DNA of 31,721 nt from a virus. The position numbers and the translations under genes were made by a program. Location: positions 1-31,721 of IMG/VR virus record IMGVR_UViG_3300047490_000165. One strand, 5' to 3'. Under the pieces are notes generated by a model. It was not told where the DNA came from. It was given only the letters and a program-made list of their open reading frames with translations, and ran no database searches. This document shows, piece after piece, positions 18,099-31,721 of this stretch. Within the stretch, counting starts at the first letter, position 1, and every line of letters begins with the position of its first letter.

Positions 18099-18689
18099 TT
18101 ATCTTGGATAAAAGAAAATGGGAATCATGTATTTGGCACCAGATGTTATTGCTTCTGGATCATGAGATACATTTGCTGACTCAAAAACGACCACGCTTCC
18201 AGCCTCTGGCTTTATTTTTATGTCTAAATCATTAAAACATAACTCTCCGCCACTGTAGTCATCATTTAAATATATAACCATTGAAACTATTGGACTTTCA
18301 CCATCAATAACGGTATCGGTATGAGGCCCCATGCCTATTCCAACATCGTATTTTTTTATGTAAAAGCTTTGGGGCAAGTACCCCAGGTTAAGTCCTGTAT
18401 CTTTGCAGTAAGACTCTCCGACAGATATTGCCTTATGTGCAATCATTGAGCACAGCTTTAGATTTATCCTATCAGCAATAGTTTGGTTTCTAAATAGATT
18501 AAGCCTACATTCCTTTTTCTTACCATATATCCTTTTTTTATCAGAAGAACTCCACTCTTGCCATGAATCAATTTGTGGAAGATAAGAATCCATTAAATCA
18601 GATTCTTCTAACTCTTTTATAAAAACATATGGATCCTCAATAACATTTTTGTAATAATGTATCTTTGGATGCAGAACCTCTTTAATCAT
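18099..18689 (-). CDS. 2-oxoglutarate/Fe(II) dioxygenase, prolyl-hydroxylase-like
   Basis: A 196-residue member of the P4H-like 2OG/Fe(II) oxygenase family, which uses O2 and 2-oxoglutarate to hydroxylate protein, sugar or small-molecule substrates. The iron triad is visible as H123 and D125 in PHTDTV and H176 in NVSHDPEA, with K186 ten residues later for 2-oxoglutarate. The core strand VIYLNDDYSGGELCFNDLDI and KPEAGSVVVFESANVSH are typical. It is the last gene of the oxygenase operon. Its start overlaps the previous gene by eight bases, with AAGG just upstream. The N-terminal HPKIHYYKNVI opening resembles that of the gene ending at 19364. The substrate is unknown. Confidence 0.9.
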   Translation of the reverse strand: MIKEVLHPKIHYYKNVIEDPYVFIKELEESDLMDSYLPQIDSWQEWSSSDKKRIYGKKKECRLNLFRNQTIADRINLKLCSMIAHKAISVGESYCKDTGLNLGYLPQSFYIKKYDVGIGMGPHTDTVIDGESPIVSMVIYLNDDYSGGELCFNDLDIKIKPEAGSVVVFESANVSHDPEAITSGAKYMIPIFFYPR

Positions 18690-19389
18690 ATTTACCTTTA
18701 TATGTAGGTTCCATTCCTTGCTCTCTAGCAGCTGCCCATTCTTTGTATGTTTCTTCTTGTTCCGCTCTAGTCTGCTTTAATTCTCTCTCCCATTCAGCAA
18801 CTTGTTCTGGAGTGTAAACAGCATCGGCGTTGTCCCAAAAAGACCCTACGGTATATCTCTCTGCCTCTTTAACAGTTGTTACCTCATGCTCGTTGCCAAA
18901 GCCACCTTTAAAAAATGCTAGTCTTCCTGGCTTAGGTCTAATCACTATATCGTGATGTTTAAAGTTTAAATGTCCGCCGTCAAAATTATCATTTAGATAC
19001 ATGAACCCTGCGTACTTACTTTTATAAAATGCTGAAGGCGTTCCGTCTTCATGAGTGTTATCTGAATGAAAACTTGCAAATGCTCCTACAACCCACTTTT
19101 GTGCATGATAACTTACCTCTGATAATTCTCTTCCAAAACACTCTTCTCCTACTTTTTTAATTTTTTCTTTTAGTTGAGAAAAATAATCTCTAGGCAGTCC
19201 AAAAACAAGAAGGTTATCATCCCATGGCCAATAACCCATGGCAAAAGATCCGTAGAACGAAATTTGATTCCAGTCTAAATGACCAGCGCTAGATATTGCA
19301 TCTAAATATCTTATAATTGCATCGCATTCTTCTTTTGGAATTACATTGTCTATGACAAATACATCATCCTTTAGCTGTACAATTTCCAT
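18682..19389 (-). CDS. 2-oxoglutarate/Fe(II) dioxygenase, prolyl-hydroxylase-like
   Basis: A 235-residue P4H-like oxygenase. H108 and D110 in ASFHSDNT, H168 in GNEHEV and R178 in AERYTV form the complete iron and 2-oxoglutarate binding set. The sheet signature YLNDNFDGGHLNFKHHDIVI precedes the distal histidine. The C-terminus (about residues 193-235) is a charged helical tail (EQVAEWERELKQTRAEQEET) absent from the smaller paralogues; it may mediate contact with a partner. The start overlaps the previous gene by 26 bases, with no strong ribosome site, so expression probably relies on translational coupling. Among the six it is clearly divergent, which argues for a different target residue or protein. 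Confidence 0.88.
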   Translation of the reverse strand: MEIVQLKDDVFVIDNVIPKEECDAIIRYLDAISSAGHLDWNQISFYGSFAMGYWPWDDNLLVFGLPRDYFSQLKEKIKKVGEECFGRELSEVSYHAQKWVVGAFASFHSDNTHEDGTPSAFYKSKYAGFMYLNDNFDGGHLNFKHHDIVIRPKPGRLAFFKGGFGNEHEVTTVKEAERYTVGSFWDNADAVYTPEQVAEWERELKQTRAEQEETYKEWAAAREQGMEPTYKGKYD

Positions 19390-20245
19390 TTTGACTCATT
19401 TCTTGTTCTTGTGCTGCTTTTACAGCAAAGTCGATTTCTTCTTGGGACGGCATAACTCTTACGCCATCTTTAAAAACTATGTTTCCTCCGTATATGTCTG
19501 CAGCCATTCTTATTCTTTCCATTTCTGCCCATTTAGCTGCACCATATTTTTGCTGATTATCTAACCACTCTTGAGAACCCTTGTGTGGATAAAACATAAA
19601 ATTTCTTATTAAGTACTTATTTCCTTTTGTAGCAGTTCTTACTCCATGATAATATGGTTCTCCAGAAGGAAATACCATTATATCTCCTGCCTCTGGTTTG
19701 TATGCTGGTATAAATTCTCCGTCTACATAAAACTCAATTTCTCCACCTTCGTAGTCATCATTAATGTAAACAGTACATGTAATAAAAAACTGATCTCCAG
19801 GCATGTCTTTTTCTGTTTGTTTAAAATCAGTATGAAACTGCATAGTTAAATTATTTTTTAACGTATCAACATTTGTATGATACTTACAAAATGACGAAGA
19901 TCCAAGCTTGCAGTCTTCTGGGAGCTCAACATCATATTTTTCAATATAGTGATCTAGGGCTTTATTGTATGCATCCCATACAGTTTCTGCAGCCCAAAAT
20001 TCTTGATCAAAGGTTTCGCTTGTTCCATGAAGATCTGTTACAGCGTCTTTATGTAGAGTGCTAGAGTATGTTCCAAATGCACTCCATTTATTCCATTCAT
20101 TAAAATAGTGTTTTCCAGACTGTACATCTTCAGGTGTTAAATTTTCTGTTGATTTTATAATTTCAAAAATCTTTTTGTGATCTGGTAATAACCCCTTATA
20201 TACTTCAATTTTTGGAAACAGGGTATGCGATACTATTTCACTCAT
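19364..20245 (-). CDS. 2-oxoglutarate/Fe(II) dioxygenase, prolyl-hydroxylase-like
   Basis: A 293-residue P4H-like oxygenase. I choose the ATG at 20243-20245, which overlaps the upstream stop as ATGA and has AAGG seven bases before it. A start 13 codons earlier (20284) has less support. From this Met the triad is H138 and D140 in QFHTDFKQ and H200 in YYHGVRTA, with K210 for 2-oxoglutarate. The strand CTVYINDDYEGGEIEFYVDG is characteristic. Residues beyond about 220 form a long helical C-terminal extension (QEWLDNQQKYGAAKWAEMER) of unknown role. It is the largest of the six. Hydroxylation of a protein or glycan is expected from the family. Confidence 0.9.
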   Translation of the reverse strand: MSEIVSHTLFPKIEVYKGLLPDHKKIFEIIKSTENLTPEDVQSGKHYFNEWNKWSAFGTYSSTLHKDAVTDLHGTSETFDQEFWAAETVWDAYNKALDHYIEKYDVELPEDCKLGSSSFCKYHTNVDTLKNNLTMQFHTDFKQTEKDMPGDQFFITCTVYINDDYEGGEIEFYVDGEFIPAYKPEAGDIMVFPSGEPYYHGVRTATKGNKYLIRNFMFYPHKGSQEWLDNQQKYGAAKWAEMERIRMAADIYGGNIVFKDGVRVMPSQEEIDFAVKAAQEQEMSQNGNCTAKG

Positions 20246-20913
20246 CTCTTTTCCTTTTCTAATTTTGTAATTGTCCAAAACCATGGAGACGTATACCTAG
20301 TGCCTTCTGTAATAACGTCAACCCCGTGGATATAGTTTAAATCTCCAGGGAAAAAGTAAGCTGCTTTTCTTTTTGGCTTAAAAGCAATTTCTTGTTTTGG
20401 AAAATGCAATCTTCCACCCTCATAATCTTCATTTAAGTATATTACAGTACCAATGTCATACCAAGGGAAATTGCCAGGCTGGCCAGCATCTGGCCCTTCA
20501 TGCAATTCTTTATCGGCATGTGGCCACTGCATAGATCCTACTGGCCATCTAACTAAACATGGTCCTGTTGGATATGCTTCTACATTAAAGAAGTCTTCTA
20601 TAACAAGTCTTAGTCTTTCAATAATTTTTTCTAACATAATTCCTACTTGAGGATCTCCCTTATCTAGGGATGCTCTAGTTGCAACACGATTTGCCCAGAC
20701 GTCGTGTTGATATATTATTGTTCCATTTTCATTATGCACGTCTTGACCGCCATCCCAGATTTCATTGTTTTTTATATAATTCAATAAATACTCACACTCT
20801 TCTTCTGTGAGAAGGTCTTCTACTTCAACAATATTGTCTTTGCTGGAGCCAAAATACCCTGATGGGGTAATAGAAACCCTATGTGTTCTTAAATCAGACT
20901 CATTAACATGCAT
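20242..20913 (-). CDS. 2-oxoglutarate/Fe(II) dioxygenase, prolyl-hydroxylase-like
   Basis: A 223-residue P4H-like oxygenase. The ATG at 20911-20913 is preferred, since TAGGTG (20920-20925) lies six bases upstream and contains the alternative GTG. From this Met the iron ligands are H132 and D134 in WPHADKEL and H196 in YIHGVDV, with R206 in TRYTSPWFW, a typical P4H C-terminus. The region EVEDLLTEEECEYLLNYIKN is the usual N-terminal helix of this family, and TVIYLNEDYEGGRLHFPKQE the core strand. Of the six, this one looks closest to classic prolyl 4-hydroxylases in layout. The partner or substrate is unknown. Confidence 0.9.
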   Translation of the reverse strand: MHVNESDLRTHRVSITPSGYFGSSKDNIVEVEDLLTEEECEYLLNYIKNNEIWDGGQDVHNENGTIIYQHDVWANRVATRASLDKGDPQVGIMLEKIIERLRLVIEDFFNVEAYPTGPCLVRWPVGSMQWPHADKELHEGPDAGQPGNFPWYDIGTVIYLNEDYEGGRLHFPKQEIAFKPKRKAAYFFPGDLNYIHGVDVITEGTRYTSPWFWTITKLEKEKR

Positions 20914-20919
20914 TATTTT

Positions 20920-20925
20920 CACCTA
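20920..20925 (-). promoter_or_regulatory. Ribosome binding site deciding an oxygenase start
   Basis: TAGGTG on the minus strand, six bases before the ATG at 20911-20913. It includes the GTG at 20920-20922, which is therefore unlikely to be the start. Confidence 0.65.
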
Positions 20926-20930
20926 TCATC

Positions 20931-21659
20931 TTATTCATATTTCTTGGGAACCCAAGTCTTTTGTTTATAAACTCCAAATTTTTCATTTCCAAACTCATCG
21001 TGTCTGTATATTTTTGTATGTGCTTCATGTCTTGCTACCATCTCTTCTTCTGTAAAAAGGTTTACCTCAGAAGTCCACTCTTCTCTTTTGTATGGAAATA
21101 TCTGAGCGTAGGGGGTTCCTTTTTTAATAATACCCTGAAAAGTATTCTTTATAAAAAATGGAATAAGTCCTGGAGGCCCATACCTATCACTATCAATTAT
21201 ACCGCTTGTAGTTAAAAAAGGCAGTTCAAAATGATTTATAGGGTGAATTACTAATGCGCTATAACCTTCTGGCAAAGTAAAGCCCCAATTTGGATACCAG
21301 TGATATGACTGCTTATAATACCCATCTGGATAATGAAATTCTCCCATATGAGGTCTTCCGTCGCAAAACCCTTTAAAATCTTTTTCTGGCTGTATATATA
21401 CAACATCACCGATTTTAGAAACTGCTATATCGCATGGTGTAGTGAACATATATCCAGATGAAAAAACATCGTGTAATGCTGGACATGATTTAAATCCAGG
21501 ACCCTTTTTATAATCTGGCGGGAATGTCATAGGCTTATTATTTTCATCAGTCCAATATTTGCTAGCATCTAAAAACCATTTAGGTGTATTTTTTTTTGCG
21601 GGTGATGGAGCATTTTCATTACTATTGTAATCTCTATTAGAGTTAAAAATAATTTTCAT
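20931..21659 (-). CDS. DUF6065-like protein of unknown function
   Basis: A 242-residue protein inside the oxygenase operon. It opens with APSPAKKNTPKWFLDASKYW, then KSCPALHDVFSSGYMFTTPC (about residues 57-76), WGFTLPEGYSALVIHPINHF (125-144), ELPFLTTSGIIDSDRYGPPG (145-164) and KGTPYAQIFPYKREEW (180-195). These blocks recall the DUF6065 group and follow the same order as in the neighbouring gene that ends at 21659, so I regard the two as distant homologues. The fold is probably beta-rich, with many aromatic residues and conserved His and Asp. No catalytic motif can be assigned. It is coupled to its upstream neighbour by a TAATG overlap. Its constant company with oxygenases here suggests a related substrate or an accessory role. 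Confidence 0.7.
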   Translation of the reverse strand: MKIIFNSNRDYNSNENAPSPAKKNTPKWFLDASKYWTDENNKPMTFPPDYKKGPGFKSCPALHDVFSSGYMFTTPCDIAVSKIGDVVYIQPEKDFKGFCDGRPHMGEFHYPDGYYKQSYHWYPNWGFTLPEGYSALVIHPINHFELPFLTTSGIIDSDRYGPPGLIPFFIKNTFQGIIKKGTPYAQIFPYKREEWTSEVNLFTEEEMVARHEAHTKIYRHDEFGNEKFGVYKQKTWVPKKYE

Positions 21660-22372
21660 TATGTTAAATCTTTCACTCCTAATTTAATTGACTTAACTTC
21701 ATGCTCTCCTAAAACATTGCCCATATAATCAACTGCATCTCTATAATGATCTGTCCATGTTCCTGCCTCGTTAGCTTTTCTTACAGCTTCCATAGCGCCC
21801 TCCATGGTTAATGGTATTTTTCTTTCAATAGTTGGTGCATTTCTATCAGAATCTATATTTATAACAGAATTATTTAATTCGGATAAAGAAACTGGCATAA
21901 TGGCAATAAATGGTTCATTTGCTTTGATTGTAATTGGAGTAAAAGCTCTAGTTACTTTCCAAGCAACTGGCAAGGGGCCTTCAAAAAATGAACTACTAAG
22001 TATACTAGTAATTGCTTGTGCCCCATCAGTAAAGCTATTTGGAACAGGAAAAGATAAAAGGCTATAGTTTTTATCTGTTACAAAGCGCAAGTTGGTTTTA
22101 AAATTAATAGTTGCATGTCCTCTGCCAGTTTCACAATACTTCTCTCCCTGAATAACTTGAATGTTATATGGTGAAGTGCTGATAATTCCATCCCACATAA
22201 AGGTTATGTCTTCTGGAAAAGAAAGACCCCATCCAATCTGATTACTTAATGTTAATGGAAAACATCTATATGCATGCTTATGCATAGTCTGATCCATCCA
22301 GTCTCTTTTTCCAGAAAGTGGTGTTATGTTTGCATGAGTTTCTGATATTTTATACGCATCTAATTTAATCAA
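21659..22372 (-). CDS. DUF6065 family protein, function unknown
   Basis: A 237-residue protein. The blocks HAYRCFPLTLSNQIGWGLSF (about residues 33-52), ITFMWDG (56-62), GRGHATINFKTNLRFVTDKN (83-102), LLSFPVPNSFTDGAQAITSI (105-124) and VAWKVTRAFTPITIKANEPF (136-155) match what I recall of DUF6065. The C-terminus is helical (EGAMEAVRKANEAGTWTDHY). The start is a TTG at 22370-22372, overlapping the end of the preceding oxygenase by eight bases, with GGAAGAG seven bases upstream. There is no HxD iron motif, so it is not another 2OG oxygenase of the same type. Its role may be recognition or modification of the same substrate as the neighbouring oxygenases, but this is inference. Confidence 0.75.
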   Translation of the reverse strand: MIKLDAYKISETHANITPLSGKRDWMDQTMHKHAYRCFPLTLSNQIGWGLSFPEDITFMWDGIISTSPYNIQVIQGEKYCETGRGHATINFKTNLRFVTDKNYSLLSFPVPNSFTDGAQAITSILSSSFFEGPLPVAWKVTRAFTPITIKANEPFIAIMPVSLSELNNSVINIDSDRNAPTIERKIPLTMEGAMEAVRKANEAGTWTDHYRDAVDYMGNVLGEHEVKSIKLGVKDLT

Positions 22373-23120
22373 TTGCCAACTCTTCCGTTATTTGTTCTGC
22401 TGTTTTAAATGTTTTTCCTTCTTTAAAATGATTATAGTCGTAACTAGCTTCAATTTCTCTGTATAGTGGTGTATGTGGAGCTTCTTGATAATCTAACATA
22501 GTTACAACTGCATATTTAGTTCCTGAAGTAACTGGCATTGCTGCGTGAGAATATATAAAGGAAGAAGGGAAAAGATAGAGGTCTCCTGCTTTTGGCTTTA
22601 CCTTAACACCTAGTTTATCAAAAAATAACTCTCCGCCTTCATAGTCATCATTGATATATCCTACTGATGAAAGAACGCATACATACGAATACCCATGATC
22701 AGAGTGAACATTAAAATGTTGATTCTTTGCATACTTAATAAAATTAAATGCTTCCCAGTAATTTAATGGTGGAATCTGAAACATATTCATGTAATCATAA
22801 ACTGCCGAAAGCTGAACTTCTTTTGCTTCCCTCCAAATGCTGCGTAATTCAAATTCATCTGCTGTAAAATCTTCTGGCTGAACATGTATTCCGTTTCCTA
22901 GCATAAGACTTCCGCCTTCATTTTCTTTAATTTTAAAATCCCATGCATCTCTATAATCTTTATTTAAAGTATCATATCCTGTTTGTGCCAAATTCCAATG
23001 CTTCTTGCCTTCTGTTTTAGAAAGAACAGATTCTAGCCTACCATCAAAATTATATGATTTCTTAAACACATCCCTGTATACAATAATTCCTGGATATATT
23101 GTTTCTGCATTTGGTAACAT
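22365..23120 (-). CDS. 2-oxoglutarate/Fe(II) dioxygenase, prolyl-hydroxylase-like
   Basis: A 251-residue P4H-like oxygenase. H139 and D141 in NVHSDHGY, H192 in FIYSHAAM and K202 complete the metal and 2-oxoglutarate site. The core strand GYINDDYEGGELFFDKLGVK and KPKAGDLYLFPSSFIYSH are diagnostic of the family. It is a close paralogue of the gene before it: both open with a YPGI motif and share FPSSFIYSH, a PV.SG.KY motif and VTMLDY. The ATG overlaps the previous stop (TAATG), and AGGAG at 23129-23133 lies eight bases upstream. The C-terminal 45 residues are an extension not present in the paralogue. Confidence 0.9.
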   Translation of the reverse strand: MLPNAETIYPGIIVYRDVFKKSYNFDGRLESVLSKTEGKKHWNLAQTGYDTLNKDYRDAWDFKIKENEGGSLMLGNGIHVQPEDFTADEFELRSIWREAKEVQLSAVYDYMNMFQIPPLNYWEAFNFIKYAKNQHFNVHSDHGYSYVCVLSSVGYINDDYEGGELFFDKLGVKVKPKAGDLYLFPSSFIYSHAAMPVTSGTKYAVVTMLDYQEAPHTPLYREIEASYDYNHFKEGKTFKTAEQITEELAID

Positions 23121-23746
23121 TACTTTATCTCCTTTTTATGTTTTCTGTCAATATAGTCGTCATATTCTTTTGAATGAGCGTCATCATTATAGTCTAACAT
23201 AGTTACAAAAGAGTACTTAATTCCAGATTCTACGGGAAGGGCTATGTGTGAATATATAAATGAAGACGGAAATATAATTAAGTCTCCCGCCTTTGGCTCT
23301 ATGTGTAAATCAAACTTAGGGAAATATAATCCTCCTCCAGTATAGTTATCATTAGGATAACCCACTAAAGAAACAGCTGATTTATATGACCAACCATCAT
23401 CCGAATGCTCTTTAAAGTACTGACCTTTTCCGTATTTTACAACATTTGTCCATTCCCAAAAGTCCATTCTAATGCTGTACATGCTACAGAAATCTAACAC
23501 AGCTTCTTTTTGACAGTTATAAACATCTTTATATATATCTATATATTCTAAAGAATCATAAAGCTTTAAGTCTTGACAATCTCTATACTCTAAGTCTTTA
23601 TCTTCTAAGCAGACAGTTGCTGTTTGCCATTGCAATACTCCTGCAGAAACTTTATCCTCAATCCTTTGGATCAGGTTTAAATCGCTTGGGAAAGAATTTG
23701 GATATTTCCATATTCCAGGGTACAACTGTTGCTTATTGTATATCAT
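23120..23746 (-). CDS. 2-oxoglutarate/Fe(II) dioxygenase, first gene of the oxygenase operon
   Basis: A 208-residue P4H-like oxygenase. H114 and D116 in KEHSDDGW, H167 in FIYSHIAL and K177 are the expected iron and 2-oxoglutarate ligands. LVGYPNDNYTGGGLYFPKFD and EPKAGDLIIFPSSFIYSH form the core. The N-terminus (LYPGIWKYPNSFPSDLNLIQ) resembles that of the next gene, indicating tandem duplication. It starts the operon 27 bases after the Hint protein gene. It lacks a Shine-Dalgarno and has the best promoter match in the window directly before its ATG. The enzyme type is confident; the substrate, a protein proline, other residue or sugar, cannot be read from sequence. Confidence 0.9.
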   Translation of the reverse strand: MIYNKQQLYPGIWKYPNSFPSDLNLIQRIEDKVSAGVLQWQTATVCLEDKDLEYRDCQDLKLYDSLEYIDIYKDVYNCQKEAVLDFCSMYSIRMDFWEWTNVVKYGKGQYFKEHSDDGWSYKSAVSLVGYPNDNYTGGGLYFPKFDLHIEPKAGDLIIFPSSFIYSHIALPVESGIKYSFVTMLDYNDDAHSKEYDDYIDRKHKKEIK

Positions 23747-23752
23747 AAATAA

Positions 23753-23781
23753 ATGATATCATATTAAAAAAAGCTAGTCAA
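23753..23781 (-). promoter_or_regulatory. Candidate sigma70-type promoter of the oxygenase operon
   Basis: On the minus strand TTGACT (23776-23781), a 17-base spacer ending in TGA, and TATCAT (23753-23758). This is five of six matches at both hexamers plus an extended -10. The ATG at 23744-23746 begins six bases after the -10, and no Shine-Dalgarno is present, so the transcript would be leaderless. The -35 overlaps the stop codon of the upstream Hint gene. Confidence 0.6.
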
Positions 23782-25366
23782 CAGTATTGTCTAGGGTTTT
23801 ACATCCATTGTAGGCTAACATGGATTCTGCAATTAATAAGCCCCAAGGCTCTCTGTATATCAGATAAACCTTTGATTCTTTTTTAACAATTTCAATTTTG
23901 GTAATATCGATAACATCTAAGGAATTGTCTTTATAGGAAACAATCTTGTCACCTTCTCTTAATCTTGAGCTTGTTAGTATTTTATACTGATTTTCTCTTT
24001 TTATAAGTATCTGCTCATTTTGTGACAAATCATATTTCTCATCATCATTAATTCTCACAAGAGACTCGTAGTCTCTTGACTCGATGTCAAAGACCTTAGA
24101 CTCAATATATTGTACATTGTTTAGTTGTTGAGAATTCCATTGATCTACTAGCCTTATACAGCTTTGAGATACATTTCCTACAGTACAATCTGGATCTCCC
24201 TCTGGAATTCCATCAAAATGCACAGTTATAAGGGTATCTTGATTGGTAATATCTTTAGCTTTCTTATACCCATCTTTTGTTAGCACATTAGTATTTTCTG
24301 GAATACAAAAACCTGGAGGGCCAAAGAATCTAGGTGGAGAAAAGAATCCTGGTGGCCCAAAGAATCCTGGTGGCCCAAAGAATGATGGTGGCGCAAAGAA
24401 TCTAGGTGGGCTGAAGAACAGCGGTGGCGCAAAGAATCTAGGCGGGCTGAAGAACAGCGGTGGTACAAAGAATCTAGGTGGGCTGAAGAACAGCGGTGGG
24501 CTGAAGAATAGCGGTGGGCTAAAGAACAGCGGTGGCGCAAAGAACAGCGGTGGCGCAAAGAACAGCGGTGGGCTAAAGAACAGCGGTGGGCTGAAGAATA
24601 GCGGTGGGCTAAAGAACAGCGGTGGGCTGAAGAATAGCGGTGGCGCAAAGAATAGCGGTGGCGCAAAGAATCCTGGTGGGGAGAAAAATGTAGTTACCTG
24701 ATTAGAGGTTCTCGGAGTAGAATTTCCATTAGCATTTACAGCAACTACAGTGTAAGACTGAGTTGTTCCCATTGTTTCTCTAACATTAAGAGTTGTTGTT
24801 GCTCCATCAACTTCATATGGAGAAGATAATCCTCCTGGCTGAACTGATGTATCAGAAGAAGTAATTATATATTTTGTTAGAGGCTTACCTCCAGAAACTG
24901 AAGCTGACCAGGTAACTACATCTTGACCACGTTGTCCTGGAGTAGTTGTTTGGTTTCCTTGTGAGCTGTGTCCTGGTCCAACTGTATTAGATGTTGAAGT
25001 TACTGTTGCTGGAGCTGCTGGAACTGTTGTAAATGTAACTGAATTAGAAGCAGCAGAAGGTTCAGACTGACCATTTGCATTTGTTGCTTTTACTGTAGCT
25101 GTACCAACAGCGCCCTGTGGAATACCAATAACTGTAATTGGAGATGAAGTTCCAATTTCTGAAAAAGTTCCTGCTGCCCCACAATTTATAAGAACTGTAT
25201 AACTTATAATTGGTAGTTGGTTTGGAGGATATTCAAAAGATACTACTCCAGCTGCGTTATTAAATGGGCGATTTGTTCCAACATCTGTTAGAGTTACATT
25301 AATAGGAGGTACTGGAAGCTCAAAGTCTCCAGATAATTGGGCTCTTCTACCAACCTTTTTTGCCAT
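23774..25366 (-). CDS. Appendage protein: FN3 domains, FFxPPx repeats and C-terminal Hint domain
   Basis: A 530-residue protein with an unusual domain order. Residues about 17-115 and 116-225 are fibronectin-III-like (ATVKATNANGQSEPSAASNS and SYTVVAVNANGNSTPRTSNQ end the two domains). Residues 227-352 are 21 uninterrupted copies of a six-residue unit FFxPPx (x mostly S, A or G; then L, R or G). Cys354 opens a Hint/intein-like domain: CIPENTNVLTKDGYKKAKDI resembles intein block A, LREGDKIV is the usual GD motif, and LLIAESMLAYN-GC resembles the C-terminal block (N520, G521, C522). Only 10 residues follow. There is no homing endonuclease. The block B TxxH appears as SQNE and the penultimate His as Tyr, so canonical splicing is doubtful. 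The start has AAAGG eight bases upstream. It lies between fibre genes and the oxygenase operon. A self-processing tail appendage is likely. Confidence 0.85.
   Translation of the reverse strand: MAKKVGRRAQLSGDFELPVPPINVTLTDVGTNRPFNNAAGVVSFEYPPNQLPIISYTVLINCGAAGTFSEIGTSSPITVIGIPQGAVGTATVKATNANGQSEPSAASNSVTFTTVPAAPATVTSTSNTVGPGHSSQGNQTTTPGQRGQDVVTWSASVSGGKPLTKYIITSSDTSVQPGGLSSPYEVDGATTTLNVRETMGTTQSYTVVAVNANGNSTPRTSNQVTTFFSPPGFFAPPLFFAPPLFFSPPLFFSPPLFFSPPLFFSPPLFFAPPLFFAPPLFFSPPLFFSPPLFFSPPRFFVPPLFFSPPRFFAPPLFFSPPRFFAPPSFFGPPGFFGPPGFFSPPRFFGPPGFCIPENTNVLTKDGYKKAKDITNQDTLITVHFDGIPEGDPDCTVGNVSQSCIRLVDQWNSQQLNNVQYIESKVFDIESRDYESLVRINDDEKYDLSQNEQILIKRENQYKILTSSRLREGDKIVSYKDNSLDVIDITKIEIVKKESKVYLIYREPWGLLIAESMLAYNGCKTLDNTVD
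24311..24688 (-). repeat. 18-bp tandem repeat array, 21 units
   Basis: Twenty-one head-to-tail 18-bp units encode the FFxPPx repeats. The commonest version on the plus strand is GGTGGGCTGAAGAACAGC, with variants at the codons for x. All units keep length and frame, so gain or loss of units would not break the gene. Units near the Hint end (24311-24500) are more varied than those in the middle, which are nearly identical at DNA level, suggesting recent expansion there. Confidence 0.95.
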
Positions 25367-25380
25367 TTAAATAACCTTTC

Positions 25381-25881
25381 TTAAGCTGTTAAGTCTCCAA
25401 AGAGAAGCCAAGTGTTGGCATCTCTTTTTAAAATTGTTGCCATAGACCATTGAAATCTTAATTTTTGACCTGGAGTAAAGTTTAAAACTACACCAGCTCC
25501 TGCAACAATGGTCGTTTGTCCTGTTCCAGATTGTAAAATATCAATTGTTGTTCCAATGGGAAAATCTACAACTGAATCTGCAGGTATTGTTAAGGTATTT
25601 GCAACCTGCATTCTAATATCTATAATTGAATCTCTTTCATTTAAGTTACTAAGGGTATAGGGAAAGTACTTTACATTAATTGGAGTTAAAGAGGGTACAG
25701 CTATTCTATCCTGAATACCGTCTTGAAATCTTACTGTACCGCCTGAAAGATCAAGGTTACCCTTTAGCACGGTGTTACCAGCTAAAGTTGTTTCCCCTTG
25801 AAATCCAGCACGTTTATTTACAGATAATGAGTTAACCTGAAGGTCTTCGTCAGTATTAAACTTACCCTTATTGAGAGCCAT
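25381..25881 (-). CDS. Short beta-rich tail fibre/appendage protein
   Basis: A 166-residue protein. The first half contains triplet-like beta-helix segments (TTLAGNTVLKGNLDLSGGTV, about residues 31-50), as seen in fibre shafts. The second half, about residues 70-166, is a compact beta domain (ANTLTIPADSVVDFPIGTTI, then GAGVVLNFTPGQKLRFQWSM and ANTWLLFGDLTA) of a kind widespread at the C-termini of phage fibres. GGAG lies five bases before the ATG. It sits ten bases after the 1005-residue structural protein, so it could be a fibre tip or an adaptor between larger fibres. No enzyme motif is seen. Confidence 0.78.
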   Translation of the reverse strand: MALNKGKFNTDEDLQVNSLSVNKRAGFQGETTLAGNTVLKGNLDLSGGTVRFQDGIQDRIAVPSLTPINVKYFPYTLSNLNERDSIIDIRMQVANTLTIPADSVVDFPIGTTIDILQSGTGQTTIVAGAGVVLNFTPGQKLRFQWSMATILKRDANTWLLFGDLTA

Positions 25882-25890
25882 GGCTTCTCC

Positions 25891-28800
25891 TTATGCCTGT
25901 GCCTCTGTCCAGGACAATCGTCCGAACACTGATGCTGTTGAAGAACCAATGTTTTGAACAACAATTGTCAGAACATCTGGGCCATCTGGGTAGATGTTAG
26001 TATTAGCTGTTGTTCCACCACCACCAAGAATTGAGTTACCAAGATCTCTAACTGTTGATAAGTCTACTGATTGTGCTCCAGAACCAAGGAAGAATCCTGC
26101 AGTTATTTCTCCGCCAGCGACTGTTGTAGATCCTCCGCTATAATCTGCAATTTGAGACAATGAAGAGTTAGCAACGTTAGCAACGTTTCCTACTGCATTT
26201 GTCCAAGCTGTAGATGTAGAAGGAACGCCATTTAGGATTGCTGTAACCAAAAGGTTTGCGTTACCAGTTGATGTTGTTGCGGTTACATCTAGGGATCTTA
26301 GAGTTAGCTGCATTCTATTAATAAGCTCTCTTGCTCCAAACGTTGATGCAATACCATTGTCCACAGATGGTGCTACACGAATTGAGAACAATGCTCTTGA
26401 TTGTCCTGCTGCTACCGATGTAGAAGTTCTCTGTCCATATGTAAACACGAGAGATTTATCATCGTCGTATCTTCCATCCATAATTACTGAGGTACCCCAG
26501 TGTGAGATAGATGCTGCAAATGTTGGATATGCAAGCTCAACCATTGTTGGAGCAACGGCATCAAATGTGAATAGTTGTGCCGATGTTGCTCCCATTGGTG
26601 CTGCAATAACTCCTGTTGGGTTTGTATCGAGTGCTGCTTTGCTTGTCTTAATTGTGTTTCCATTAATGGCTGCAATAAATGTGCCTTCTGGATACAACGC
26701 ATTAATAAGTCTCATGCCAACTTGTAGATTAGCTGAGCTAGACACTGTTCCTACTGAAGAACCAACTGCTTGTGTTATGTTTATGGAAGTTTCTCCAGCT
26801 CTACCTCGTGTAAGACCAGTAAAAGATGTTGCAGATTTTCCAGAATAGTTTACGTACTCGGCTTTTGTTCCATCTCTAATTACTAGAGTACCACTTGGTG
26901 GGAAACCTGCTGTTGATCTTACAGCTAAAGCTAAATCTGTTGTTAGAACAGTTTGTGTAGTAGCTGTATATGGAGGTGTTGTTGATGACTCATAACGTCC
27001 TGGCAAGTTACCAGAGCGCATATATGCCTCTGTATTTACGTTATTGTTTGGCATCTTGTGGCAATAAATAACATCACCCTTAGGACCTCTTACACCCCAT
27101 CTTACGAAGCCAGCTCCGTACCAAGTGTAGTCAATGTAAAACATCTGCATCTTTGAAAGATCAATATTATATTGAGATGGTCCTGTTCCATCTAGCTTAT
27201 CAATATTAAATTCTGATTGCTTAATTTTTGTTTCTTGTGTTTTTGAAATAAGAGCGAACTGAGTAGTTGCACCTCTGTAAGCTGGGCTAATAGTCATTGA
27301 TGTATCATTTTGAATATCAATAACTTTATATGACTGACCTCTAATTACAATATAATCTCCTGGGATTAATTGCTTAGAGAAGAATGTTGGAAAGTATGCG
27401 CTTGACTGTGTAATGGTGGCACCACCAAAGTTAGCGTTAACTTTTCCAGAAAGCTGGAAAGTTGAATTTCTACGAACTGCCTGTAGATTTTGTCCATCAT
27501 ACTCCCAGTATAGGCCGTTTTGATTATCAAACATACCTAGTCTATTTTGGCATCCATACCATGATTCTACTGAGGCATAGAATTCTCCTGTTGCAATTAC
27601 GGATGAAGGAATAGATAAAGCATTATATTGGAACTTGTCGTCAGAAATTACACTTTGAATTTCAAATGTTCCATTATACTCAGGCTGATTACATCCGCCA
27701 ATCTTAATCATAGTGCCAGGCTGCAAGTTATGCTTTTCTTTTGTTTGAACTGTTACAACAAGTGTTCCGTTGCTTTGAATATTTTCAATTCCTGCATAAG
27801 GCTTTAGAATTGTACCAGAAGAAACTTGTAGACCCTTACCTGATTGATAACGGAAATAACGACGGGTTTGACGAATACAAGATGCATAGTTAGAAGCAGC
27901 ATTTGTTCCAAAAATAACTCCGCCATCGTTTGGTCTATGTGCAAACTGTGATTGTGGTCTTACATAAAGGAATATTCCACCACCAATAGTACCAGTTGGC
28001 GCAAGTTCAGCGTAAAAGGCAAATTGTGATGGTCCAAGAATTGAAGCAACTTCAAAGTTTCCATTTGGTGGATTGGTTGTTGCTGTTGCACCAATTACAA
28101 CAATTTCATTTCCTAGTGCAAGTCCGTGAGGAATGGTTGTGGTTACAACAACCCTTCTTCCGCTGTATGTCATTGTTGGGCTTCCACCAATAGCTGCTCC
28201 TGTAAAAACATCTCCCTGAACGACAAGTGTTTTATTTGGATCTAGAATTGATGTAATTCCACTTCGATTTACAGCGTTTGCTGTATAAGTAAATGTTGAT
28301 GACCCACCGCCAGATTCAACGATAAAGTTACCATTTGCAGCTGTCAAATATGTATCAATAACTGTTATTGAAGTTCCATTTGCTGGAGCAGTTCCAGATG
28401 ATAGCGTTATAGAAACAGTCTTTGAGTTATCTGGAAAGCTTATCGAAGCAATGTTTGGAATTGGTGTTGGGCGGGCATAAGAATATGGTCTATTGTTATA
28501 AAGTCCTAGGTTTTCCCACTTTGTTTGCTGAATACCATATTCAAAGTCGGTGTCGATTAGTGCTTGTGGCGAACTGATACGAAGTTTGTTAGTTGTATCT
28601 AACAATACTTCTGCTGGCATCATTGTTTCATTATAATCATCAATTGTAATTTGAAGTTTATCTGTAGAGGTCATTGATGCAGTGTTGTATTCTAGAACAA
28701 TTGTGGTATTTTCTACCATTGCACTGCTTGTGCTTGTGTTGTACGAAGTACATCCTAAGCTAGGATCTGAAAAATTATAAATAACTTGATTTGTTGTTAC

Positions 28801-28908
28801 GTTTGTAATCAACAAAAGTCTTTCTCTAAGAATTGTTTTCGGAATTGAAATTGTTCTTGTTGAAGGTGTAAAGGTGTAGCTTGTTTCTAGTAATACTTTT
28901 CTTGCCAT
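25891..28908 (-). CDS. Large multi-domain virion structural protein
   Basis: A 1005-residue beta-rich structural protein. The N-terminus (ISIPKTILRERLLLITNVTT, about residues 19-40) is followed by a short beta domain. At least three copies of a repeated module occur near residues 155-215, 245-310 and 385-440. Each has a VxT..HgL.pG..v.I.G pattern, then NG.F.V and F.Y; examples are IPHGLALGNEIVVIGATATT and VVTVQTKEKHNLQPGTMIKI. Near 680 lies RDGTKAEYVNYSGKSATSFT with GLTRGRAG, a module also common in phage structural proteins. The C-terminal 200 residues are Ser/Thr/Ala-rich. It has GGAG before the ATG and no catalytic motif. It is probably a side fibre, tail-tip or baseplate component that works with the adjacent fibre. 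Confidence 0.8.
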   Translation of the reverse strand: MARKVLLETSYTFTPSTRTISIPKTILRERLLLITNVTTNQVIYNFSDPSLGCTSYNTSTSSAMVENTTIVLEYNTASMTSTDKLQITIDDYNETMMPAEVLLDTTNKLRISSPQALIDTDFEYGIQQTKWENLGLYNNRPYSYARPTPIPNIASISFPDNSKTVSITLSSGTAPANGTSITVIDTYLTAANGNFIVESGGGSSTFTYTANAVNRSGITSILDPNKTLVVQGDVFTGAAIGGSPTMTYSGRRVVVTTTIPHGLALGNEIVVIGATATTNPPNGNFEVASILGPSQFAFYAELAPTGTIGGGIFLYVRPQSQFAHRPNDGGVIFGTNAASNYASCIRQTRRYFRYQSGKGLQVSSGTILKPYAGIENIQSNGTLVVTVQTKEKHNLQPGTMIKIGGCNQPEYNGTFEIQSVISDDKFQYNALSIPSSVIATGEFYASVESWYGCQNRLGMFDNQNGLYWEYDGQNLQAVRRNSTFQLSGKVNANFGGATITQSSAYFPTFFSKQLIPGDYIVIRGQSYKVIDIQNDTSMTISPAYRGATTQFALISKTQETKIKQSEFNIDKLDGTGPSQYNIDLSKMQMFYIDYTWYGAGFVRWGVRGPKGDVIYCHKMPNNNVNTEAYMRSGNLPGRYESSTTPPYTATTQTVLTTDLALAVRSTAGFPPSGTLVIRDGTKAEYVNYSGKSATSFTGLTRGRAGETSINITQAVGSSVGTVSSSANLQVGMRLINALYPEGTFIAAINGNTIKTSKAALDTNPTGVIAAPMGATSAQLFTFDAVAPTMVELAYPTFAASISHWGTSVIMDGRYDDDKSLVFTYGQRTSTSVAAGQSRALFSIRVAPSVDNGIASTFGARELINRMQLTLRSLDVTATTSTGNANLLVTAILNGVPSTSTAWTNAVGNVANVANSSLSQIADYSGGSTTVAGGEITAGFFLGSGAQSVDLSTVRDLGNSILGGGGTTANTNIYPDGPDVLTIVVQNIGSSTASVFGRLSWTEAQA

Positions 28909-28911
28909 ATT

Positions 28912-31721
28912 CTAATCTCCTAATTGTATATCCACTGCCCTAAATGGATAAATCGATTTTTTAGCGTTTTGACTCTCTGGACCCGACATATATCTACCTT
29001 CGAACTTAGATCCGACTGGTACGGGTTCTCCGAACTGTGCAAATCCGTCTTCGTCAAAGTAGTATCCATCGGAAGGAATCAAACTTAGCCAATGTCTATC
29101 TTGGTTTCCCAATATTTGTAGTATACCATTAATCGTTATCAAAAGCTTATAAGGATTTTGTGGTATAAATATATCCCCGTCATATGTTAGCTGGAATCTT
29201 GACTCTGAGCCGTCAAAAAATACTGATATATCATCTAATGGATAGATATCAGAGCCAACGGCTTGTGCTAGCTGGTTTTCCAGGTATGCCTTACTTACTG
29301 CATGCTCATCCTCTGTAGGTGTGGGTACAGGGACTGGTCCTGCTCCAAAATTAACCCCATTTATATTAACATTTGTAAGTGTTTTATTGGTAAGGGTTTG
29401 AGTATTTGTTTCAGTAACAAGATTATTAGATGTAGTTGCATTAATTCCTAGTCCTGGAATTCTAAAACTTGTTATTAAGGAGTTTCCTAATACAATTTGA
29501 TTATTTGTATTTGTAGAGGTAGTTGCTGCGTTAAATCCAATTACAATGTTATTTGAGCCAAAGTCTAGCGTGTTTGCAGCGGAGGTTCCAACTATAACGT
29601 TCTGACTTCCACTAAGCAATAACGAGCCAGCACTAGATCCAATTGCAACGTTATTAATACCATCTTGAAGTGCATTTAATGCATCTTGACCTAAAGCAGA
29701 GTTGTTTGTTCCAGTAGTTAAATTTCTTAATGCATAGTATCCAATACCTGTATTATTATTAACTGAATCTACTCTACCATATACTATTCCCTGTGTGTCA
29801 GGATCTGCAGCCAATATTTGAAAAGAACCGCCAAGACTTACTGTAGTATTAACACCATCTACAGACATTGTAATTGATGAATTTGCTAATTTATTATTTG
29901 CAATTGATCCAGTTTCGATCATTTCATTTGTTATTGTGCCATTTGGAAGACTTACTGTTCCTGTAAATATTGGTGAGTCTACAGGAGCTTTAAGATTTAA
30001 AGCAGTTTGAGTTGCTGTAGAAATTGGTTTATTAGCATCAGAAGTATTATCAACATTTCCTAAACCAACCATAGCCTTTGTAATACCAGTAGCAGTTCCA
30101 GTAAATGCAGGATTTGATATTGTTGGAGAGTTTATTGTTGGAGAAGTAAGTGTTTTGTTAGTTAAAGTTTCTGCTCCAGCACGTGTTGTTAATGTATGAG
30201 ATCCGCCACCAATTGGAAGTGTTGTTGTATTACCACTATGGTTAAACTGAATATTACCTGAATTTAACTGTATTGATGCCGCATCCAGATATAGAGTTGT
30301 TCCAGAAAGATAAAGGTCTCTAAACTTATTAGCTGAGGATCCAAGATCGTACGTGGCATTTGTTGATGGAATTAAACTGCCGCCAATAGTTGCGCCATTA
30401 ATTATTGGAGAAGTTAAAGTTTTATTGGTTAAAATTTGTGATGTATTTAGATCTACGGTTGTTCCAGTATTAATACTGAATGTATTACCAGTAAGATTTA
30501 ATCCGTTACCTGCAAGGTACGTGCCAGCACCTGAGAACTGTGTAAATGCAATTGGGTCTGTTCCAATAGTGGCTGGACGATTTGTTTGTACCCACCCAGT
30601 GCTAGCATTTACTGTTCCTGAATATACGAATACGAAGTCACCACTGTCAACCTCTGTTGCGGTATCAAAATCTGTTGCACGTACTGGTTGACCTGAGGCT
30701 TGTACTACATAAATACCGTTTTCTGATGTAGTTGTTTGATTCTTAACAAGAATGCGGTTGCCAGTTGCAAGCGTTACTCCATCAAGAGTGTCTCCATTTT
30801 CAAGAGCTGTTGCAAGGTCTACGTTTGTTGTTGTTGCTGCAACTACAGATTCATGAATATGTAGACCTTCTGTTGCTGAGTCTACATAAGCCTTTGTTGC
30901 TGCATCTGTACTTGCTGTTGGTGCTCCAAGATTTGTAATCTTGTAGGTAGCCATGCTTACATCGCCAGTTGGTGCTCCAACTGCGTTTAACGCAAATTCG
31001 GATGGGTCAACAGATATTGCACCTGTATTATCATCATAATCAAGACCATTACCTACTGCATTACCGACTGCATCTTGTGCATTTTCATCTGTATAAGTGA
31101 CTGCACCAGTTAATGAAATTGCATTTGTTGCATCATCATATCCAACTGTAATGTTTGTATGGGTTCCATTTGCAAGAGCCTGTGCAACTGCATCTTGTGC
31201 TCTTTCATCTGTAAAATACTTATTTGTTGAGCCTTCTACAAGATTGTCCGTGGTTGAATCTGCAACACCATTTTCCGCAGTAATTGTTAAACCATTTTTG
31301 TCACCAGTAATAGTGATATTAGATTTTGTAGCGTTTGTTAATAATTCTGCTGCAAACGTTTTGGTGGCTAGCTCAGATGTATCAGAAATCCCATGGATAC
31401 CAGTTGTGTCTGAAGCATGGTTAGTAAGATCTGTTGATGATGCTTTAGAATCTAATTGTGTCTGGATTGCTGATGTTACTCCATCTACATAATTTAATTC
31501 AGTTGTAGAAGCTGTTATTCCGTCTAAAACGTTAATTTCGGTTGCTGTAGCAGTTACAGATACATCTTCATTAATTTTAGGTGAAGTTAAAGTTTTATTT
31601 GTAAGAGTTTGTGTTGCATCTGTTACAACAAGTTTTGATGTATCTGCAATTCCGTGAATGTTTGTTGTATCTGATTCGTGATTAGAAAGATTTGTTGCAA
31701 CTGTTGTGAAGAATGCTGGAT
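28912..31721 (-). CDS. Long tail fibre protein, 5' end beyond the window
   Basis: The frame is open from the TAG at 28912 to the right edge with no stop, giving 935 visible residues. The ATG at 30952-30954 is internal: the reading continues upstream as NAVGAPTGDVS before MATYKITNLGAPTASTDAAT. Upstream residues contain repeated fibre motifs: two NH.SDTT.IHGI.DTS copies (about 31340-31430 and 31625-31690) and STNKYFTDERAQDAV. The LTNKTLT motif occurs four times in the visible part. At about 29465-29765 lies a run of AIGxxAG / IVIGxNAA repeats resembling the YadA-type trimeric adhesin head. The C-terminal domain (about residue 815 of the visible part onward) contains IFIPQNPYKLLITINGILQI and SDGYYFDEDGFAQFGEPVPV. 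The protein is probably a trimeric host-binding fibre. Confidence 0.9.
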   Translation of the reverse strand, partial: PAFFTTVATNLSNHESDTTNIHGIADTSKLVVTDATQTLTNKTLTSPKINEDVSVTATATEINVLDGITASTTELNYVDGVTSAIQTQLDSKASSTDLTNHASDTTGIHGISDTSELATKTFAAELLTNATKSNITITGDKNGLTITAENGVADSTTDNLVEGSTNKYFTDERAQDAVAQALANGTHTNITVGYDDATNAISLTGAVTYTDENAQDAVGNAVGNGLDYDDNTGAISVDPSEFALNAVGAPTGDVSMATYKITNLGAPTASTDAATKAYVDSATEGLHIHESVVAATTTNVDLATALENGDTLDGVTLATGNRILVKNQTTTSENGIYVVQASGQPVRATDFDTATEVDSGDFVFVYSGTVNASTGWVQTNRPATIGTDPIAFTQFSGAGTYLAGNGLNLTGNTFSINTGTTVDLNTSQILTNKTLTSPIINGATIGGSLIPSTNATYDLGSSANKFRDLYLSGTTLYLDAASIQLNSGNIQFNHSGNTTTLPIGGGSHTLTTRAGAETLTNKTLTSPTINSPTISNPAFTGTATGITKAMVGLGNVDNTSDANKPISTATQTALNLKAPVDSPIFTGTVSLPNGTITNEMIETGSIANNKLANSSITMSVDGVNTTVSLGGSFQILAADPDTQGIVYGRVDSVNNNTGIGYYALRNLTTGTNNSALGQDALNALQDGINNVAIGSSAGSLLLSGSQNVIVGTSAANTLDFGSNNIVIGFNAATTSTNTNNQIVLGNSLITSFRIPGLGINATTSNNLVTETNTQTLTNKTLTNVNINGVNFGAGPVPVPTPTEDEHAVSKAYLENQLAQAVGSDIYPLDDISVFFDGSESRFQLTYDGDIFIPQNPYKLLITINGILQILGNQDRHWLSLIPSDGYYFDEDGFAQFGEPVPVGSKFEGRYMSGPESQNAKKSIYPFRAVDIQLGD

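Follow-up and report, generated by a model that had tools for sequence, protein, structure and literature searches.

The window analysed here is a stretch of viral DNA of 31,721 nucleotides, and all of its features described below lie on the minus strand unless stated otherwise. An open reading frame at 23774..25366 encodes a protein of 530 amino acids with the layout FN3-FN3-(FFxPPx)21-Hint. It comprises two FN3-like domains (residues ~22-226; 24689..25303), 21 FFxPPx units (residues 227-352; 24311..24688), a junction made by Phe353 at position -1 and Cys354 at Hint position 1 (24305..24310), a Hint domain recognised by profile, AlphaFold2 model, Foldseek and column analysis (residues 354-520; 23807..24307) and the decapeptide GCKTLDNTVD after Asn520 (23777..23806). 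The first-pass annotation of this DNA had named the N-terminal part FN3 domains. This assignment is fair, though below threshold: the Pfam fn3 match (E 0.0043) scored 17.7 bits against a curated cut-off of 25, whereas the protein matched the FN3 domain 1uey (phmmer E 3.8e-5) and the full-length model has two beta-rich regions in this part, both with high pLDDT. A plus-strand ORF at 24243-24701 reads the repeat in antisense (GGxKN) and was taken as an artefact.

Three genes upstream of the repeat gene (25381-25881, 25891-28908 and 28912-30954) gave matches to virion structural, tail and head decoration PHROGs. With tail-fibre-like and virion-structural PHROGs as its neighbours, the repeat protein is likely to be located in the virion as well. 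We found no relatives of the 530-amino-acid protein among the named phages in the collection. The portal protein is nearest to those of Streptomyces phages (58%), a large virion protein is nearest to those of cyanophages (46%), and the GC content is 35-38%; a freshwater actinobacterial host is our guess. The gene product is a probable surface-fibre protein of an environmental tailed phage.

The FFxPPx pattern runs through residues 227-352 as 21 consecutive units without interruption, and the strict aromatic/proline periodicity noted earlier is thus perfect throughout. At the DNA level the units comprise 13 different 18-mers, and the codons of the fixed Phe and Pro residues vary synonymously. 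This variation indicates that the pattern is preserved at the protein level, and that more than a recent DNA repeat is involved. In a monomer model of the full-length protein, the repeat had a pLDDT below 50 and was given no structure. Viral sequences were scanned for the FFxPPx pattern, and 154 distinct ORFs containing it were examined among the matches listed.

The identity of the C-terminal domain was examined by profile comparison and structure prediction. Searched from the window sequence alone, the domain gave no significant Pfam match and matched NCBIfam intein_Nterm only with E values of 0.024-0.18. A profile of the family, built from an alignment of 33 C-terminal domains, matched bacterial intein-like 2lwy (E 1.4e-5), 2jmz (E 2.3e-4) and 6qaz (E 1.3e-3) in the PDB, with several inteins among the matches, and single members of the family matched Hint_2, Intein_splicing or PT-HINT. 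An AlphaFold2 model computed with this alignment as input reached a pLDDT of 91.3 and a pTM of 0.87. In Foldseek searches, the model retrieved BIL2 (E 6.6e-6), Hedgehog (E 3.3e-5) and mini-inteins, all with a probability of 1.0 and with TM values up to 0.62/0.76. The model displays the horseshoe-shaped all-beta fold of the Hint superfamily, and the family profile shows significant similarity to its members. The C-terminal domain almost certainly has the Hint fold, and the comparison with Hint folds that had been proposed as a check on its identity bore out the earlier reading.

The Hint domain begins where the repeat ends: Cys354 occupies the place of the second Phe of unit 22, directly after Phe353. 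Exactly ten residues follow the terminal Asn520, so that both the abrupt junction and the short remainder described in the first-pass annotation stand. Active-site positions were mapped by alignment and are named as in PMC4031507. The window has Cys354 at A:1, Ser448 at B:7, Glu451 at B:10 (codon 24014-24016), Leu502 at F:4, Tyr519 at G:6, Asn520 at G:7, Gly521 at +1 and Cys522 at +2. Compared with a canonical domain, Cys1 and Asn520 are kept, whereas Glu451 replaces the block B His, Leu replaces the F:4 Asp and Tyr replaces the penultimate His. The window domain also lacks a nucleophile at +1 (Tyr519-Asn520-Gly521).

Class 1 inteins are defined by Cys or Ser at position 1, T-x-x-H in block B, a residue at F:4 that is most commonly Asp although Cys or Trp also occur, and a C-terminal His-Asn followed by Cys, Ser or Thr at +1. 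The window has Cys354 at the first of these positions, but S-Q-N-E in block B, with Glu throughout a clade of 21 members, Leu502 at F:4 and Tyr-Asn-Gly at the C terminus. Class 1 splicing was rejected on these defining residues. The Gly at +1 agrees with type A BIL domains, since the lack of a +1 nucleophile is a hallmark of BIL domains (PMC4031507). The His-Asn of type A BILs is Tyr-Asn in the window but occurs in 20 other representative members. As the defining residues of neither class are complete, we class the domain no more narrowly than as a variant Hint domain, which may act like the N-terminal cleavage domain of a BIL or Hedgehog protein. Sterol transfer of the Hedgehog kind was rejected, as the domain has no sterol-recognition region and only ten residues follow Asn520.

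The junction and active-site columns are strictly conserved. Among 16 relatives forming the window subclade, with ~40-75% identity to the window Hint domain, Phe353, Cys354, Thr359, Ser448, Glu451, Leu502, Tyr519, Asn520, Gly521 and Cys522 are all invariant; in the same sequences, invariance extends to only 30 of 178 columns overall. Both Phe353 and Cys354 are invariant across the whole 21-member Glu clade, and F:4 is Leu in the window subclade but Asp or Glu in its sister. The dN/dS of the Hint part (0.10-0.20) is as low as that of the FN3 part. The remodelled active site looks constrained, and the strict invariance of these columns speaks against mere decay, even though a structural role could have the same effect. 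Two cysteines in an insertion of the Hint domain, C394 and C403 (residues 394-403; 24158-24187), do not vary among the 14 full-length relatives that were aligned; a disulfide hairpin between them is possible.

The residue at -1 varies with that at block B. Phe(-1) was found in 21 of 21 domains with Glu, in 1 of 14 with His and in 3 of 19 with Gln. On the tree, the Glu clade arose only once; its 21 members are therefore not independent events, a test of independent pairs is without power, and the association is a mechanistic lead rather than statistical proof. In inteins whose block B His has been changed to Ala, bulky residues at -1, among them Phe, bring back both the N-S acyl shift and N-terminal cleavage (Friedel et al. 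2018, PMC6333167). By analogy, the chemistry of the window clade could involve the final Phe of the repeat, and such a role would account for the junction being exactly in phase there. Alternatively, Phe(-1) may be conserved by the repeat itself.

Other lineages of the family differ at these positions. The 54 representative Hint tails fall into the junction types (position 1/block B/C-terminal pair) Cys/Glu/Tyr-Asn (20, plus one Asn-Asn), Cys/Gln/His-Asn (15), Cys/His/His-Asn (5), Cys/Gln/Ile-Ala (3, plus one truncated) and Ser/His/Phe- or Tyr-Asp (9). Position 1 is Cys or Ser in 54/54. Cys, Ser or Thr at +1 is essentially absent (one Ser), and ordinary splicing is therefore not expected. The junction is not exactly in phase in every lineage, as linker residues occur in others and Ser replaces Cys in one branch. 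This Ser branch (L110, L127, L061, L055, L067 and L025) has an intact S/T-x-x-H, and Phe-Asp or Tyr-Asp replaces its His-Asn. A further subtype (L139:369-1652 and L136:4051-5271) ends in Ile-Ala without a terminal Asn and with nothing after it, and its middle also matches PDZ (PF00595, 3e-6).

The module that follows the repeat was found to be exchangeable. Among the matches listed, the 154 distinct ORFs carry a Hint domain, a small Cys-rich tail, an "FK" ending, a short tail or an S74 module after the repeat, with about 72 distinct long-tail cases of Hint. Some relatives end just past the repeat, with ...PPAFK ("FK") or FGSRFIRSY. In a single relative (L130:9634-10341), a peptidase_S74 chaperone (PF13884, E 1.7e-10) occupies the position of the Hint domain. 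FN3 parts that are ~65-71% identical bear either a Hint domain or a different tail. The natural ends after the repeat look like the product expected if a Hint domain cleaved at F353|C354.

These observations bear on whether the Hint domain is still active. With B:10 His, F:4 Asp and G:6 His substituted and no +1 nucleophile, the chemistry may be dead, and the domain could then terminate the repeat fibre as a folded cap or an oligomerisation chaperone. The loss of the three helper residues fits such a role, as does the use of the same place by Cys-rich or short tails in other lineages and by an S74 chaperone in one. A structural cap would not need Cys354, Ser448, Glu451, Asn520, Gly521 and Cys522 to be all invariant, however, nor Cys or Ser at position 1 in every representative tail, and we regard this explanation as possible but doubtful. 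Cleavage at F353|C354 is plausible and slightly favoured. The proposal of the first-pass annotation that the layout forms a dedicated processing device is thus borne out in part: the conservation of the remodelled site, the relatives ending in ...PPAFK and the S74 module in place of Hint speak for it, whereas most canonical catalytic helpers are missing in the clade and the in-phase junction is confined to some lineages. Attachment of the repeat end to another molecule, also suggested there, is speculative.

The largest clue, absent from the earlier reading, lies directly downstream of the repeat gene, where a co-operonic battery of prolyl-hydroxylase-like oxygenases occupies 18099-23746. It consists of six tandem 2OG-Fe(II) oxygenase genes and two others. 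In order from the repeat gene, these are oxygenase 1 (23120..23746; PF13640, 2.8e-10), oxygenase 2 (22365..23120; PF13640, 8.2e-12), a DUF6065 protein (21659..22372; PF19541, 4.1e-32), a protein matching phrog_7084 (20931..21659; 4.4e-32), oxygenase 3 (20242..20922; PF13640 at 1.6e-5, slightly below the cut-off, and phrog_61, 2.5e-16), oxygenase 4 (19364..20284; phrog_61, 8.1e-19), oxygenase 5 (18682..19389; PF13640, 5.7e-10) and oxygenase 6 (18099..18689; phrog_61, 5.2e-20). The HxD...H iron triad with a downstream Lys or Arg is present in 6/6. The solved structures nearest to the oxygenase profile are the prolyl 4-hydroxylases 3itq and 5hv0 (E 9e-12), followed by a prolyl 3-hydroxylase and EGLN1. 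The oxygenases are thus prolyl-hydroxylase-like, and their linkage to the repeat gene suggests peptidyl-proline as a candidate substrate.

We explored how general this linkage is. Among the matches listed, a same-strand 2OG oxygenase lies downstream of the FFxPPx gene in 114/119 cases where 4 kb or more of sequence follows the gene, and upstream in 1/89; the homologue and pattern sets share contigs, and these counts are not fully independent. By distinct protein type, a downstream oxygenase accompanies 54/54 FN3, 13/16 PASTA-like and 0/3 long multi-domain proteins. At least two of the three long exceptions (L182 and L197) belong to phages that carry another Phe/Pro-repeat gene as well.

An independent sample was drawn by portal protein, blind to repeat or oxygenase, and comprised 39 loci, each 11.5 kb or longer. 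Ten of the 39 had at least three oxygenases, five of them with FFxPPx and five without, and the latter five (L279, L280, L315, G045 and G052) carry a different Phe/Pro-repeat gene beside the cluster. A Phe/Pro repeat was present within the locus in 8/10 cluster loci and 0/29 cluster-free loci (Fisher P 7e-7); the 0/29 refers to the DNA available, some of these loci being too short on one side. Extension upstream past two truncated locus ends revealed the repeat genes of G045 and G052, so that 10/10 contigs have a repeat beside the cluster. The repeat proteins of L315 and G045 likewise end in a Hint domain.

Repeats of the FFPPYFP, FFPYFPP and FFPPHFPP types adjoin 2OG clusters in phages without FFxPPx. 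Such genes were located at L279:718-1626, L280:1004-1627, L315:1192-2571, L346:4527-5807 and L347:2007-2930; their repeats reach 41% Phe and 32% Pro, and two of the five end in a Hint domain. The arrangement of repeat and 2OG cluster also occurs in large phages where the portal of the window was not found (G010, G018 and others), and it is therefore not the synteny of one lineage. A search for the T4 portal family gave no match anywhere, controls included, and was discarded.

Gene linkage alone does not establish the substrate of the oxygenases. They could be auxiliary metabolic genes with unrelated substrates that are adjacent by chance, since aquatic phages commonly carry 2OG oxygenases, which are usually classed as metabolic genes. 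The linkage is one-sided, however; it spans different Phe/Pro repeat types and N-terminal architectures, and portal-matched phages without the repeat have no clusters. We consider chance adjacency unlikely. From the gene arrangement, the oxygenases probably act on the Phe/Pro repeat.

Two other functions of the Hint domain were weighed. A disulfide between Cys354 and Cys522 might serve as a redox switch or covalent lock in place of cleavage. In Hint folds, the position two residues past the terminal Asn sits close to residue 1. Cys522 holds this position in every member of the 16-member window subclade, and Cys-rich tails stand at the same place in other family members; the +2 Cys is missing from every other Hint lineage of the family, however, so that a disulfide cannot be the general function, and we judge this reading improbable. 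Splicing or ligation, in which a class 1 intein or type A BIL would join the flanking segments, is highly improbable: the Hint fold, Cys1 and terminal Asn are present, but G:6 is Tyr, +1 Cys, Ser or Thr is missing, and with only ten residues after the domain the outcome would merely append a decapeptide.

From the observed architecture, fold, conservation, module exchange and linkage, we propose that the 530-amino-acid protein is a C-terminally processed fibre or adhesin, in which two FN3-like domains would be followed by a long Phe/Pro repeat stalk. The six downstream oxygenases would hydroxylate the stalk, most likely on prolines. The variant BIL-like Hint domain may activate the Phe353-Cys354 bond as a thioester through Cys354. 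It would then release itself or be intercepted, and the repeat would form the end of the remaining fibre chain. The missing block B His may be replaced by Phe(-1), which would strain the scissile bond, as in the Ssp DnaB M86 intein. The exchangeable C-terminal modules would trim, cap or anchor the chain end. We give a processed, enzyme-hydroxylated Phe/Pro fibre, as the best overall explanation, about an even chance. The Hint fold, oxygenase action on the repeat and cleavage at F353|C354 would hold jointly with somewhat less than even probability. The fullest version, a hydroxylated fibre with a terminal Hint domain that liberates or activates the end of the repeat and uses the last Phe in place of the catalytic His, is offered only tentatively.

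The proposed system resembles several known ones in part. BIL domains (2lwy from Clostridium thermocellum and 6y75, Tetrahymena BIL2) share the Hint fold, Cys1, the lack of a +1 nucleophile and the type of self-processing module; in the window clade, by contrast, B:10 is Glu, F:4 is Leu and the C-terminal pair is Tyr-Asn rather than His-Asn, and the domain caps a Phe/Pro repeat at a chain end in phage genomes. The Hedgehog autoprocessing domain (1at0; Foldseek E 3e-5) is likewise a C-terminal Hint and cleaves its N-terminal partner via a thioester, but the window domain has ten residues and no sterol-recognition region after it. The M86 mini-intein G(-1)F/H73A (6fre) combines a bulky Phe(-1) with the absence of the block B His and still performs the N-S acyl shift by experiment (PMC6333167). 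It is an engineered, true intein with a +1 nucleophile, whereas in the window the Phe comes from a natural repeat and B:10 is Glu. The window clade would allow this laboratory result, the replacement of the block B His by a bulky -1 residue, to be tested in a natural protein.

A virus-encoded prolyl hydroxylase with viral protein sequences as likely substrate has a parallel in the prolyl 4-hydroxylase of chlorovirus PBCV-1, which acts on viral peptide substrates, and PBCV-1-type viruses are reported to make hydroxyproline (Eriksson 1999, as cited in PMC9301287). PBCV-1 is an algal virus, whereas the present phages are tailed and have 3-6 tandem enzymes beside one Phe/Pro repeat gene. Viral use of prolyl 4-hydroxylase has been called cryptic (PMC9301287). 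We found no report of virus-made hydroxyproline or of a Hint-capped fibre in bacterial viruses, which is weak evidence given incomplete coverage of the literature; in a search for Hint domains in virion or tail proteins, the phage-genome papers examined mentioned only true inteins in non-fibre proteins. If the proposal is true, it would describe a hydroxyproline fibre in a bacterial virus together with natural extein-assisted Hint catalysis, and many phage 2OG oxygenases would shift from host metabolism to virion maturation. The one-sided linkage offers a concrete and testable substrate for the 2OG-Fe(II) oxygenases of aquatic phages, which are common "auxiliary metabolic genes".

The peptidase_S74 chaperone of phage tail spikes and fibres is also a C-terminal module of fibre proteins and takes the position of Hint in L130. 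It self-cleaves, yet its fold and chemistry are unrelated to those of Hint. The Hint domain is possibly a new self-trimming module alongside the S74 chaperones. Some phages encode two different FFxPPx proteins several kb apart, and the two often share their C-terminal module (L139, L140/L184, L182 and L126/L186); L147 is an exception in that its two proteins differ in this module. The Hint domains of L140/L184 are 78% identical to each other, compared with 70-71% to their counterpart in L165.
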